64,000 nt of DNA from Patulibacter minatonensis DSM 18081 (GTDB taxonomy: Bacteria; Actinomycetota; Thermoleophilia; Solirubrobacterales; Solirubrobacteraceae), in contig NZ_KI912613.1 of NCBI RefSeq assembly GCF_000519325.1, positions 3,801,859 to 3,865,858 on the forward strand. The letters run 5' to 3'. The notes under the pieces were generated by a model. It was given only the letters and a program-made list of their open reading frames with translations. It was not told the DNA's origin and made no database searches. Positions 37,321 to 41,593 of this stretch are shown one piece after another. Positions within the stretch are counted from its first letter, which is position 1; every line of letters starts with the position of its first letter. The position numbers were made by a program, and so were the translations under genes.

Positions 37321-37761
37321 GTGTCCGCATCCGTGACTCCCCCGGCAGAAGGCACCGCGACGGCGGAGGGCACCCGGGCGGCGGGTGCGAGCCCGGCGTC
37401 CCCGGGCGTCGCCCCGGAGCCGCCCGCCGCGTCCCGCGACACGATCCGGCATCCGGAGACGTCGACGCTCGACCTGGCGCACGTGCTGCGCACCGTCGGC
37501 GATCCGCTCCGTCTCTCGATGGTCCGGGTCCTCGCGGCCGAGGGCGAGCTCCTCTGCGGCGCGCTCGGCGAGCACACGGGTCTGCCGAAGTCGACGACCT
37601 CGTACCACACGCGTCTGCTGCGGGAGGCCGGTCTGACCCGGACCCGGCAGGACGGCACGCTGCGGTACATCTCGCTGCGGTCCGACGATCTCGAGTCGCG
37701 GTTCCCGGGCCTCGTAGACGTGCTCGTGACGGGCGGCGAAGGCGCCGGGACGACGGGCTGA
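37321..37761 (+). CDS. ArsR-family winged-helix regulator
   Basis: 146 residues from GTG 37321, with TAGCAT (37309-37314) six bases upstream. The first ~45 residues are low-complexity. The wHTH spans residues ~50-130: LAHVLRTVGDPLRLSMVRVL, the recognition helix in TGLPKSTTSYHTRLLREAGL, and the wing in RTRQDGTLRYISL. No typical metal-binding CxC motif of ArsR/SmtB is present, so it probably senses an organic ligand. It likely represses itself and the divergent MFS gene. Confidence 0.9.
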   Translation: MSASVTPPAEGTATAEGTRAAGASPASPGVAPEPPAASRDTIRHPETSTLDLAHVLRTVGDPLRLSMVRVLAAEGELLCGALGEHTGLPKSTTSYHTRLLREAGLTRTRQDGTLRYISLRSDDLESRFPGLVDVLVTGGEGAGTTG

Positions 37762-37841
37762 GCGCCGCGGGTCGCCGTCCGCGGGACCGCCCGGCGCGGC
37801 GCCCCCGATCGGCGGGCACGCCCCGCCCGGCCACGCGTGTC

Positions 37842-37847
37842 TAGACT
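37842..37847 (+). promoter_or_regulatory. -10 box upstream of efp
   Basis: TAGACT ends 11 bases before ATG 37859, so the predicted leader is only a few bases long. Confidence 0.45.
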
Positions 37848-37858
37848 CGTCCGCGGCC

Positions 37859-38419
37859 ATGATCAGCACGAACCAACTGAAGAACGGCAATCACATCGAG
37901 GTCGACGGTGTCGTCTTCAAGGTGCTCGAGACGCAGCACGTGAAGCCCGGCAAGGGCGCGGCGTTCGTGCGCTCGAAGCTCCGCCGCACCAGCGACGGCA
38001 ACGTCATCGACAAGACGTTCCGGGCCGGCGAGAAGTTCCGCGCGGTCCACACGGAGGCCCGCAACATGCAGTACCTCTACGATGACGGCACCGACGCGCA
38101 CTTCATGGACACCGCGTCCTACGAGCAGCTCGCGATCCCGGTCTCGAACGTCAAGTCGGCCCTGCGCTTCGTCCGTGCCAACGACGAGGTCCAGATCCTC
38201 TTCATCGACGAGCAGCCCTCCGACGTCCAGCTCCCGCCGTCGGTCGAGCTCGAGGTCACCTTCACCGAGCCGGGCCTCCGCGGCGACACGGCCTCCGGCG
38301 GCGGCGACAAGCCGGCCACCCTGGAGACCGGCGCCGAGATCCGCGTCCCCCTCTTCGTCAACATCGGCGACCGCGTGAAGGTCCAGACGGAGACCGGCGA
38401 CTACATGTCTCGGGCCTGA
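37859..38419 (+). CDS. efp: Elongation factor P
   Basis: Translation factor that rescues ribosomes stalled at polyproline. 186 residues from ATG 37859, full length with KOW-like domain I and two OB domains. The tip loop HVKPGKGAAFVR has Lys32 at the position modified in many bacteria. No EpmA- or YmfI-type modifying enzyme is seen in this window. Conserved SNVKSALRF, then EVTFTEPGLRGDTA and GAEIRVPLFVNIGD confirm the family. Confidence 0.97.
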   Translation: MISTNQLKNGNHIEVDGVVFKVLETQHVKPGKGAAFVRSKLRRTSDGNVIDKTFRAGEKFRAVHTEARNMQYLYDDGTDAHFMDTASYEQLAIPVSNVKSALRFVRANDEVQILFIDEQPSDVQLPPSVELEVTFTEPGLRGDTASGGGDKPATLETGAEIRVPLFVNIGDRVKVQTETGDYMSRA

Positions 38420-38508
38420 CCGTGTCGCGGGCCTGACCGGCCCGGGCAGGTGCCGTCGCAGCCTTGACCTTCCGGCAGGCGCTCCGTGCCCCCGGACGAT
38501 GTGATGCG

Positions 38509-38532
38509 GAGGGCGCCCGAAGGGGCGCCCTC
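38509..38532 (+). terminator. Hairpin, probable efp terminator
   Basis: 10-bp perfect stem (38509-38518 with 38523-38532) around GAAG, 90 bases after the efp stop. No T-run. Confidence 0.5.
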
Positions 38533-38644
38533 GCTGCGATCCGGGGGCGGGAATGGGCGCCCCACGCGTACGACGGGGTGCCGGTCGGGGCCTGACCTGC
38601 GGTCCAGCGGCGTACGGTGGTCCCGGGCTGTCGGGCGGAGCGAG

Positions 38645-38848
38645 TTCTGCGTTGTCGTCGGCATGCGACGCCAACGCAGAACCGGTGGTGGGTGGCGGTG
38701 GCCTAACGATGGACGTCGTGCGCGACTTCTGCGTTGTCGTCGGCATGCGACGCGAACGCAGAACCGGTGGTGGGTGGCGTCGGCCTATCGACGTACGACG
38801 TGCGCCACTTTTGCGTTGTCGTCGGCATGCGACGCGAACGCGGAACCG
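38645..38848. repeat. Palindromic tandem repeat, period 82 bp, about 2.5 copies
   Basis: Units begin at 38645, 38727 and 38809. Each opens with a ~37-base imperfect palindrome (TTCTGCGTT ... GTCGTCGGCATGCGACG ... AACGCAGAA), followed in the first two by ACCGGTGGTGGGTGGCG and a more variable part. The third copy is cut after its palindrome, which has TTTTGCG and AACGCGGAA ends. A related palindrome is at 40145-40184. Confidence 0.9.
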
Positions 38849-39094
38849 GGCTCCACCCGCCGCCGCCCCCGCTATCCCTGTTGCCCCCGCTGCCCGCCGC
38901 TGCCCCCCGCGCACCTCCGGTACCTCGTGCAGCTCATGTCGGGGACGGCCGGTGCCTCCGGGAGCGCCGACCCGGTGAGCGTTTCGGCGGCCGGCCCGTG
39001 CGGGCGACGTTCGATTCGTGTCGGAGGTGCGCCGAGATCGGTTCGACATCGCAGCACCGCGGGCGAAGCGCGGGCACGGGTGCACGATCGGGTC

Positions 39095-40081
39095 GTGGAA
39101 CGGCCAGCGTCGATCGATCGGATCATCGCGGGACTCGCTGCATCCCAGGACGGCGTGTTCTCACGCTCCCAGCTCCGGGCGCGCGGAGTCTCGGACCAGG
39201 TGATCGACCGCCGGCTCCGATCCGGACTGCTGGCGTCCCGTCATCGCGGGGTGCTCGTGCTCAACGGGGCACCGCTCTCCCAGGACGGTCGCCATCGAGC
39301 GGCACTGCTCGCGGGTGGGGCGGCCGCGGCGCTCAGCTACTCCTCGTCCGCGGTGCACTGGGCGCTGCTTCCGCCGTCTCGTGGCCCCGTCCACATCACG
39401 GTGCCGACGAGTCGGCGCCGGCAGACCGGGTTGGCACATCACGTCGCCGGTCTGCCCGGTCGCTCGATCACCGTCCATCGCGGCCTGCGGTGCACGACGG
39501 TCGCCCGCACGATCGTCGACGTCGCGGCGAATCACGGCCCGGCCGCAGCGCGGAGAGCGTGGACGACCGCCGCGGCCCGGCGGCTGATCCGGAGGGCGGA
39601 CGTCGCGTTCGAGCTCGGACGCGCCGCCGGCCGCCCCGGCGCGCGGTTCGTGGCGGAGCTCGCTGCGGCACAGGACGAGTACGCCACGCCCGGGACGCGG
39701 AGCGCTCTGGAGCGACGCGCACTCCAGATGCTTCGCGACGCGGGGATCCGACCACCAGCGGTCAACGTGCTGGTCGTCGTCGACGGGCGCGTCTTCGAGG
39801 TGGACCTGACCTGGGGGCCGGACCGCGTGGCCGTCGAGATCGACACGCGGGGCACGCACGGGCACGGCGTGGCGTTCGACGACGATCGAGAACGGGACGC
39901 CGTCCTCGGCCTCGCCGGCTGGCGCACGGCACGATGGACCGAACGGGACATCGACGTCCATCCACGACGAACCATCGCCCGGATCCGCGCGATGCTCGCG
40001 CAGGCGCCGCTCGAGCGCGCTCCCAGCACGTTCGAGGCACGAGTGGTCGGGCCGGACGGCAGCCTCGACGGCGTCCCCTGA
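39095..40081 (+). CDS. AbiEi-like HTH / DUF559-type nuclease-fold protein
   Basis: 328 residues from GTG 39095; the frame is open further upstream but runs into the repeats. Residues ~1-60 form a winged helix (IIAGLAASQDGVFSRSQLRA, then GVSDQVIDRRLRSGLL) as in AbiEi-type antitoxins. The C-terminus resembles DUF559/Vsr-like PD-(D/E)XK folds: FEVDLTWGPDRVAVEIDTRG, then DDDRERDAVLGLAGWRTARW. Many actinobacteria carry large families of such genes with no assigned role. It is bracketed by the palindromic repeats at 38645-38848 and 40145-40184. No AbiEii-like toxin is adjacent. Confidence 0.78.
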   Translation: MERPASIDRIIAGLAASQDGVFSRSQLRARGVSDQVIDRRLRSGLLASRHRGVLVLNGAPLSQDGRHRAALLAGGAAAALSYSSSAVHWALLPPSRGPVHITVPTSRRRQTGLAHHVAGLPGRSITVHRGLRCTTVARTIVDVAANHGPAAARRAWTTAAARRLIRRADVAFELGRAAGRPGARFVAELAAAQDEYATPGTRSALERRALQMLRDAGIRPPAVNVLVVVDGRVFEVDLTWGPDRVAVEIDTRGTHGHGVAFDDDRERDAVLGLAGWRTARWTERDIDVHPRRTIARIRAMLAQAPLERAPSTFEARVVGPDGSLDGVP

Positions 40082-40144
40082 GCTGGGCTCGCCCACCGCG
40101 TCCGGGTCGCGGCCGCCGCTGCGGTCGCCGCCGGAGACGACCGG

Positions 40145-40184
40145 TTCTGCGCTGTCGTCGATATGCGAGGCGAATGCAGAACCG
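40145..40184. repeat. Isolated fourth copy of the palindromic repeat
   Basis: TTCTGCGCTGTCGTCGATAT ... GAATGCAGAACCG matches the palindrome of the units at 38645-38848 with several changes, mostly compensated across the stem. It lies 63 bases beyond the AbiEi-like gene. Confidence 0.8.
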
Positions 40185-40237
40185 ACGGCCGCTGCAGCGG
40201 GCGCCCCCGTTCACCGAACCGTTACGGACCGCGGTCC

Positions 40238-40263
40238 ACTTAAGTCGTTGACTCGTGTAGTAT
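40238..40263 (+). promoter_or_regulatory. Candidate operator/promoter of the YceI gene
   Basis: Contains the palindrome ACTTAAGT (40238-40245), overlapping AGTCGTTGACT (40243-40253), then a -10-like TAGTAT (40258-40263). The A/T-rich island in a GC-rich genome and the symmetry suggest a repressor site, possibly MarR/HxlR-type. Start codon at 40319. Confidence 0.4.
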
Positions 40264-40318
40264 CTGTCCCGACCGAACTACCGATACCGGATCCGAGATC
40301 CGGGAACTGGAGCATCCC

Positions 40319-40846
40319 ATGGCCCTCCCCGCCGGCACCTGGACCACCGACACCGTCCATTCGAGCGTCACGTACGCGATCAAGCACAACAAGCTGACGC
40401 TCTTCCGCTCGGGCTTCTCCGAGTACGAGGTCACGCTGGAGGTCGGCGAGGACGGCGCCGCGTCGCTCAACGGTGACGTGACGGTGGAGTCGTTCACGAT
40501 CAGCAACGAGCAGTTCGTGCAGCACCTGAAGAGCGAGGAGTTCTTCGACACCGCGAAGTTCCCGAAGATCACCTTCGCGTCGACCGAGGTCGGGCAGCAC
40601 GACGACCACCTCCACATCACGGGCGACCTCACGATCCACGGCGTGACCAAGTCGGTCTCCGGCACCGCCGCGTTCACCGGCCCGGTCGAGGGCGCGTTCG
40701 GCGGCACCCGCGTCGGCGTCCAGGTCACGTACACGGTCGACCGCCGCGACTTCGGCATCACGTGGCAGGTGCCGCTCGCCGGTGGTGGCGACTACCTCGG
40801 CAACGACGTCGAGCTGGCGCTGCAGCTGGAGCTCGTCAAGGCCTGA
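40319..40846 (+). CDS. YceI-family lipid-binding protein
   Basis: 175 residues from ATG 40319. YceI proteins form a lipocalin-like barrel that binds polyisoprenoid or amide lipids. Signatures: GTWTTDTVHSSVTYAIKH at the N-terminus, EEFFDTAKFPKITFAST and TGDLTIHGVTKSVSGTAAFT. No signal peptide, so this member is cytoplasmic. Its separate A/T-rich promoter suggests individual regulation. Confidence 0.93.
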   Translation: MALPAGTWTTDTVHSSVTYAIKHNKLTLFRSGFSEYEVTLEVGEDGAASLNGDVTVESFTISNEQFVQHLKSEEFFDTAKFPKITFASTEVGQHDDHLHITGDLTIHGVTKSVSGTAAFTGPVEGAFGGTRVGVQVTYTVDRRDFGITWQVPLAGGGDYLGNDVELALQLELVKA

Positions 40847-41074
40847 GCGGCCTCTGCGGCCCTGGTCGGTCCGTTCCTCGCCACCTGCACGGCGGCGGGG
40901 ACGCCGCGGCCGACCACCGCGGTGGAGGCCGCGACTCCGGGCACCCGTTCTTCGGACGGGTCGCCCGGGCGGGCCTCGGCCCTGACACCCGGCCGGGGCT
41001 CCCGCTCTCCCGCGGCCCCCGCCCTTCGCCACCGCCCGCCGGTCCCGCGGCCGGTGGCGTAGCCTTCCGCCCGC

Positions 41075-41479
41075 ATGTCACGTCGGAGCGACCAGCGGCG
41101 CGAAGCCGTCTTCACCGTCTATCAGCACGATCTGACGGGGCGCCCGCTCCACGACCTGTTCGACCAGGACGCGGCGATGTTCACCCGGTCGCTCGCCCAC
41201 GCGACGACCGACCTCCAGGACGAGTTCGACGTCCTCATCGGCAAGCACGCCAAGGGGTGGAGCGTCGAGCGCATCAACCCGCTGGAGCGCTCGATCATGC
41301 GGGTGGCGCTGCTCGAGATGCTGCACCCCGAGATGGTGCCCGCCGACAGCCCGATCCCCGCCGAGGGCGCGATCTCCGAGGCCGTCGACACGGCCAAGAA
41401 GTTCTGCGACGCCGAGGCCCCTGGCTTCGTCAACGGGATCCTGTCGGCGATCCTCAAGGACGCCCCGCCGCGCTCCTGA
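41075..41479 (+). CDS. nusB: Transcription antitermination factor NusB
   Basis: 134 residues from ATG 41075, with TAGCCT at 41060-41065. All-helical RNA-binding factor of the rRNA antitermination complex. Typical segments: RREAVFTVYQHDLTGRP, WSVERINPLERSIMRVALLE and a C-terminal AISEAVDTAKKFCDAEAPGF followed by VNGIL. A 22-bp tandem duplication overlaps the stop codon (CGCTCCTGAG at 41471 and 41493). It normally follows efp; here a repeat region, an AbiEi-like gene and a YceI gene intervene. Confidence 0.94.
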   Translation: MSRRSDQRREAVFTVYQHDLTGRPLHDLFDQDAAMFTRSLAHATTDLQDEFDVLIGKHAKGWSVERINPLERSIMRVALLEMLHPEMVPADSPIPAEGAISEAVDTAKKFCDAEAPGFVNGILSAILKDAPPRS

Positions 41480-41593
41480 GCGCCGACCGCCGCGCTCCTG
41501 AGCGCCGACCGCCGCGGGCCGCCGCAGGCCGCCTGCACAGGACCCGCGCACCCTCCGCACACGACCTTCCGGCCGATCCTTCACACTGTCGGG

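Follow-up and report, generated by a model that had tools for sequence, protein, structure and literature searches.

A dispersed palindrome family of Patulibacter minatonensis and a nuclease gene as its probable partner

The interval between efp and nusB in Patulibacter minatonensis DSM 18081 contains three imperfect palindromes of 37 bp at a pitch of exactly 82 bp, followed by a nuclease-like gene and a diverged fourth palindrome. What are these repeats, and is the gene that they bracket connected with them? The locus lies in a 64,000-nucleotide stretch of contig NZ_KI912613.1 (the window, that is, the whole stretch of DNA analysed, to which the positions below refer). An earlier annotation made from its letters alone, the sequence-only reading, had likened the repeats to REP (repetitive extragenic palindromic) or BIME (bacterial interspersed mosaic element) families. 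We consider that the array probably belongs to a lineage-specific, REP-like palindrome family whose partner is the bracketed gene; the product of this gene would join an AbiEi-type DNA-binding domain to an EDxHD/Vsr-like nuclease and would spread the palindrome. Sequence comparisons establish the dispersal of the family, its lineage specificity, the association of palindromes with genes of this type, the existence of gene-specific families and the conservation of the catalytic residues.

A dispersed, lineage-specific palindrome family

The triple array and the diverged fourth palindrome, both of which the sequence-only reading had described, were found again (Table 1). Tandem Repeats Finder reports the array at 38640-38849 with a period of 82, 2.6 copies, 91% matches and a score of 343; the fourth copy agrees at 78% over a 46-nt frame, and all four palindromes have the same orientation. 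A covariance model was built from 22 palindrome copies and searched against the 5,521,807-base contig, with both strands merged in the place counts. At E<=1e-4 this search placed the family at 30 distinct sites of the 5.52-Mb genome, eight of them outside the training set of the model, and so bore out the suggestion of a REP/BIME-like dispersed family. The 30 places form 18 loci, 17 of which lie between predicted genes: six are in convergent gaps, ten in tandem gaps and one in a divergent gap, with one inside a reading frame. This context comes from a simple, crude gene finder that did not call the AbiEi-type gene of the window, perhaps a sign of unusual codon use. The consensus of the 22 oriented copies is CCGnTTCTGCGTTGTCGTCGCnnTGCGACGCGAACGCAGAAnCGG, in which a two-base mismatch, mostly GT against CG, separates an outer from an inner stem; its ends, CCGnTTCTGCGTT...AACGCAGAAnCGG, are able to pair to their tips, and an unpaired GTAG or CGTC terminal tag was found in none of the 22.

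Eight of the loci are arrays, seven with a pitch of 81-83 bp and one with a pitch of 71 bp, and within each array orientation is uniform, without the alternation of BIMEs. Of the seven arrays whose spacers were compared, six have spacers of 44-46 bp and the seventh has one length of 34 bp. The spacers of one array are near copies of one another, and for this reason a clustered regularly interspaced short palindromic repeat (CRISPR) array was rejected, cas genes not having been searched for. Between arrays, spacers are alike only for the 4871k/4872k pair, two other pairs reaching z values of 2.6 and 3.0 only. At one locus (L124, 4864-6671) the same spacer is found in two arrays, of three and two units, about 1.7 kb apart in a stretch that includes a run of N; a segment may have been duplicated here and a unit gained or lost. 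At another (L108, 4764-4889), two family palindromes stand 81 bp, or 27 codons, apart inside a predicted open reading frame of 1,530 residues. Comparable spacings were seen outside the family: an apparent second palindrome family of the same genome (L110) has a pitch of 81 bp, two palindromes from another genus (L172) are 83 bp apart, and other palindrome families (L047, L264) have pitches of 59-61 bp.

The family appears confined to its lineage. Searched against seven congeners under stricter filters, the model gave 0-2 weak matches in each, the best at E 6.4e-4. Orthologous sites were then sought in these congeners with seven coding anchors that lie beside family loci, and 25 congener loci could be read at five of the sites (none at sites L111 and L117): seven at the SpoU methyltransferase gene, six each at efp and aspS, four at purM and two at argS. 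No match at E<=0.01 was obtained in the 25 loci, two being marginal at E 0.08-0.09, while palindromes were detected in the same run at four own-genome loci. The sequence-only reading had suggested checking relatives for an empty site between efp and nusB, and this is what they have: in all five of the six efp loci that reach nusB, nusB lies within about 110 bases of efp, and neither an AbiEi-type gene nor a YceI-family gene was found between the two. At the aspS site, by eye, only one congener keeps the downstream neighbour. One congener has a different palindrome at the SpoU-gene site, in an array of about 13 units with a 59-bp period (L264, 659-1420).

Association of palindromes with AbiEi-type genes

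Homologs of the gene were collected by protein similarity alone, and at least one was found in 46 of 61 genomes, the window's own included. Of 97 homolog loci, one (L135) was excluded from the association test because its palindrome had brought the locus in, leaving 96; it was retained among the 97 and among the 47 palindromes of the geometry analysis. A long palindrome was defined by a score >=10 and a length >=34 nt, and the near window was set from 140 bp outside to 40 bp inside a gene end. By these definitions, 41 of the 96 loci carry a long palindrome at a gene end, upstream in 31 cases and downstream in 13, three loci having one at both ends. Among the near windows 44 of 192 contain a long palindrome, among the far windows 11 of 377 (Fisher p 1.5e-13), and one of those 11 is the window's own array; dinucleotide shuffling leads one to expect about 2 in 192 near windows, and inside genes 5 of 318 windows contain one. 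The family model itself picks out palindromes of the same design with different outer arms in the relatives G052 and G009, and an AbiEi-type homolog lies at the palindrome in 3 of 20 loci taken from G052, G009 and G051.

The gene-side palindromes share a common geometry despite differences of sequence from gene to gene. A T at position -11 and an A at position +11 are each present in 32 of the 47, and pairing at positions 8, 9 and 12 is lower than at neighbouring positions. Of the 33 upstream palindromes, 24 start 27-39 bases ahead of the homologous start, with the nearest in-frame start codon usually near or within the palindrome; downstream, the stop codon falls inside the palindrome in at least five cases (L135, L152, L163, L199 and L205). 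The centre is odd in 46 of 47 gene-side palindromes, compared with 162 odd and 172 even centres in fully shuffled DNA; this was not used as evidence, because 10 of the 11 far palindromes are odd-centred as well. A separate arrangement was seen in another family of the order, where an AbiEi-type homolog is followed downstream by near-identical palindromes of a different type at distances of 135, 198 and 333 bp from one another (L232).

Each gene examined tends to have a palindrome family of its own. Thirty gene-side palindromes, chosen for strength, were searched as two joined query sets, each against its genomes of origin: 12 from three genomes (E<=0.1) and 18 from 18 genomes (E<=1e-4). Opposite-strand rows of one place were left out; the counts are lower bounds. 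Among the matches listed, at least 22 of the 30 recur at three places or more within the genome that supplied them, and none matches any other searched genome. In genome G015, four families, each beside its own gene, have at least 13, 9, 13 and 11 places; in Conexibacter arvalis DSM 23288 (genome G028, 100% identity; Solirubrobacterales in the NCBI taxonomy), five such families have at least 10, 13, 3, 5 and 9. The palindromes of the 18-genome set have at least 21, 22, 9, 7, 7, 7, 7, 6, 6, 5, 5, 5, 4, 2, 1, 1, 1 and 1 places. Eight of the 30 thus have one or two places among the matches listed, which shows that a strong palindrome need not be a dispersed one. One of the own-genome genes in the 12-palindrome set (L047) also has a further local array.

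The AbiEi-nuclease gene and its surroundings

The sequence-only reading placed an AbiEi/DUF559-like gene between the repeats. That layout stands; mere bracketing does not, since palindromes of different sequence accompany such genes in other genera as well, which makes the gene the likely partner of the palindromes. Its product combines an AbiEi-type N-terminal region with a nuclease domain. The former matches AbiEi_4 above the cut-off (E 2.8e-6) and the PADLOC AbiEi model over residues 12-170 (E 1.2e-24). Among 28 aligned homologs, AbiEi_4 is matched in 26, MTES_1575 in 25 and DUF559 in 25 at E<=0.01, and Glu205, Asp236, Glu247, Asp249, His254 and Asp263 are invariant in all 28. This series of E, D, E-x-D, H and D may correspond to the residue pattern of the EDxHD family. 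Against Protein Data Bank chains, the profile of the gene family matches 3hrl (E 2.8e-8) and, more weakly, 3r3p, a 'Mobile intron protein' (E 6.7e-4), which we take to be the EDxHD homing enzyme I-Bth0305I; the latter alignment spans 60 columns without Glu205 and sets the His column over a Trp. An AlphaFold model of the window protein built from two sequences was poor (mean pLDDT, the predicted local distance difference test score, 52.8), the first 60 residues exceeding 70 per block except in the last block. The gene is preceded by efp and followed by YceI-family and NusB-family genes; an AbiEii toxin gene is not adjacent.

Table 1. Features of the efp-nusB interval, in window coordinates
Feature	Position	Strand	Remarks
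Palindrome copy 1	38645..38681	+	37 bp
Spacer 1	38682..38726	+	45 bp; 38 of 45 bases identical to spacer 2
Palindrome copy 2	38727..38763	+	top score of the window's four against the family model
Spacer 2	38764..38808	+	45 bp
Palindrome copy 3	38809..38845	+	single-stranded DNA fold not beyond shuffles
AbiEi-type N-terminus fused to MTES_1575/DUF559-like nuclease domain	39098..40081	+	start uncertain, open frame extends back to 38486
Nuclease part	39710..39997	+	codons E205 (39710), D236, E247, D249, H254, D263 (39884)
Palindrome copy 4	40145..40181	+	diverged; oriented like copies 1-3; separated from the nuclease-gene stop codon by 63 bases
YceI-family gene	40319..40846	+	between efp and nusB here

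A proposed mechanism and its alternatives

These observations suggest a model for how the gene could propagate its repeats. A symmetric dimer of the protein would bind its own palindrome; about 21 bp, or two helical turns, separate the conserved TT from the conserved AA, a spacing that would suit such a dimer. The nuclease would then nick or break the DNA at the palindrome, repair or copying may carry the palindrome to new sites and lengthen arrays, and the gene itself would retain palindromes at its own ends.

Several findings weigh against this proposal. No movement was observed. At the thresholds used, 55 of the 96 homolog loci have no long palindrome, and the Fisher p is only a guide because the loci are homologous and the windows not independent. 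As a rule the upstream palindrome and the start of the coding frame overlap, which is unexpected for a simple transposon with palindromic ends. The congener sites, which were also read for the target-site duplication and exact boundary of a miniature inverted-repeat transposable element (MITE) of a DDE transposon, are without the palindrome, yet their flanks do not align base by base, and because the intergenic DNA of the congeners does not align no exact insertion boundary can be drawn. Among the matches listed, five palindromes of the 18-genome set have only one or two places, and the palindromes of three paralogs from the window's own genome have at least 2, 1 and 1. In the window no palindrome lies at the start of the gene, from which the end of the array is about 250 bp away upstream, and the palindrome beyond the stop is diverged. 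The match of the window protein to the REase MTES_1575 model has an E of 6.1e-7 but scores 29.9 bits against a curated Pfam cut-off of 38.2. Finally, pairing among the 22 genome copies is preserved at 85.9%, compared with 86.9% in shuffles, and thus without excess.

This last result bears on the sequence-only reading, which had argued from changes in the fourth copy that the stem is kept by selection on structure. The argument fails because pairing is no better than in shuffles and copy 4 forms only 14 of 18 stem pairs (15, 15 and 16 in copies 1-3). Within the 37-mer, copy 4 changes three of the pairs that copy 2 forms: one survives as a G-T pair, while the other two no longer form. Outside the 37-mer, copy 4 gains two pairs and loses one. 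It also bears on a rather improbable alternative, in which the palindromes are structural or RNA elements, such as terminators or mRNA stabilisers, that were multiplied by recombination and only secondarily came to lie beside the genes. Several stems do fold well as single-stranded DNA: copies 1 and 2 beat 200 of 200 dinucleotide shuffles (z -7.2 and -3.7) and copy 4 beats 198 of 200 (z -3.4), copy 3 being without significance (z -1.4, with 20 of 200 shuffles equally good). Some copies also lie close behind a predicted stop codon, for example by 4, 20 or 37 bases. Against these stand the gene-palindrome association and its specificity, the failure to find covariation among the copies, and the failure to find a terminator-like T-run across 38400-40320; at the window palindromes no terminator or sigma-70 signals were found, and no Rfam family matches within 37500-41500 at E<=1.

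Two further alternatives, each of which we regard as unlikely, retain a direct role for the protein. The palindromes might be its operators, the upstream one serving autorepression and the dispersed copies forming a regulon. The near-fixed upstream position described above and the Pfam text for AbiEi_4 ('Transcriptional regulator, AbiEi antitoxin') agree with this, but a regulon would not be expected to include arrays and copies behind stop codons or to occupy mainly convergent and tandem gaps and one reading frame, with a single divergent gap in 18 loci; the nuclease residues are moreover conserved, and the family was not found in the congeners. Alternatively, the gene could be a homing endonuclease gene aimed at palindromes that other machinery spreads, its flanking palindromes being copies of the target. 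The relation of its nuclease domain to the mobile-intron protein 3r3p favours this reading; according to the review PMC3943268, I-Bth0305I, an EDxHD enzyme, forms a dimer on a target nearly 60 bp long and is classed with group I intron homing endonucleases. Long targets would be common to both systems, whereas the genes studied here stand alone, with palindromes at either end or both and many more dispersed through the same genome. A homing role would also require a second mobiliser, and no Y1 transposase was found in this genome (other transposases were not searched for); nor would it account for each gene having its own palindrome family.

A comparison with REP elements and their RAYTs (REP-associated tyrosine transposases) is instructive. 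The sections of PMC3733652 used here describe REPtrons as short intergenic palindromes that prefer tandem and convergent gaps, are species-specific, occur as several types per genome and adjoin a cognate enzyme. The present palindromes are likewise dispersed between genes in tandem and convergent gaps, lineage-specific and present as several families per genome, and in both cases the enzyme gene has repeats of its own family at its flanks. The enzyme, however, is unrelated, being an AbiEi-nuclease fusion. The RAYT-type transposase that the sequence-only reading suggested looking for was not found in this genome: the Y1_Tnp profile (PF01797) gave no match at E<=1, whereas it matches in 10 of 14 control genomes. 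Internal mismatches are frequent in REP stems too. In contrast to REPs, the palindromes here have no unpaired GTAG or CGTC end tag, and, unlike BIMEs, they do not alternate within an array. Direct arrays at near-constant pitch also differ from the close units in opposite orientation described for REPs in the same sections (PMC3733652). Bacteria widely carry REP-like palindromes in their genomes. One superfamily, with CGTC tags, reportedly has no transposase dedicated to it (PMC3733652), a likeness to the present family, for which no RAYT was found; that superfamily differs in its unpaired terminal CGTC motif and 8-9-bp stems, and an AbiEi or DUF559 gene is not mentioned in those sections (PMC3733652). 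With the type IV toxin-antitoxin system AbiE (PMC3985639) the gene shares its AbiEi-like N-terminal region (PADLOC), but here this is fused to a nuclease domain, and YceI and NusB families rather than an AbiEii toxin lie downstream.

That many related bacteria have their own version of this gene-and-repeat pair speaks for a type of small selfish DNA that has not been described. More tentatively, it is possible that a RAYT-independent class of selfish DNA is common in Solirubrobacterales, in which AbiEi-EDxHD nucleases each copy and disperse their own 37-57-bp palindrome, and that the orphan 'AbiEi / DUF559' genes of Actinomycetota are in many cases not antitoxins but mobilisers of REP-like repeats. 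The array pitch, nearly constant at 81-83 bp with spacers mostly unrelated, would in that case record cleavage a set distance away from the palindrome. If palindrome families have indeed been paired with a second, unrelated class of enzymes, such genome parasites would seem to have arisen more than once. Many genes labelled AbiEi antitoxin or DUF559 by profile libraries, a large group, would then have a testable function and would offer many natural nuclease-target pairs whose specificities have seemingly changed together. Full-text literature searches, judged by titles and abstract openings among the matches listed and with subscription papers mostly outside their scope, yielded no paper linking AbiEi/DUF559 genes to palindromic repeats.

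Carriage of the genes by phages or plasmids was considered and rejected: 50,697 phage records contained no match to one homolog, a single scan of viral contigs revealed no confirmed relative, and matches were present in only 4 of 72,556 plasmid records. Apart from the palindromes, the neighbourhood of the array contains a perfect 22-bp tandem repeat of 2.4 copies (41465-41516) that spans the end of nusB.
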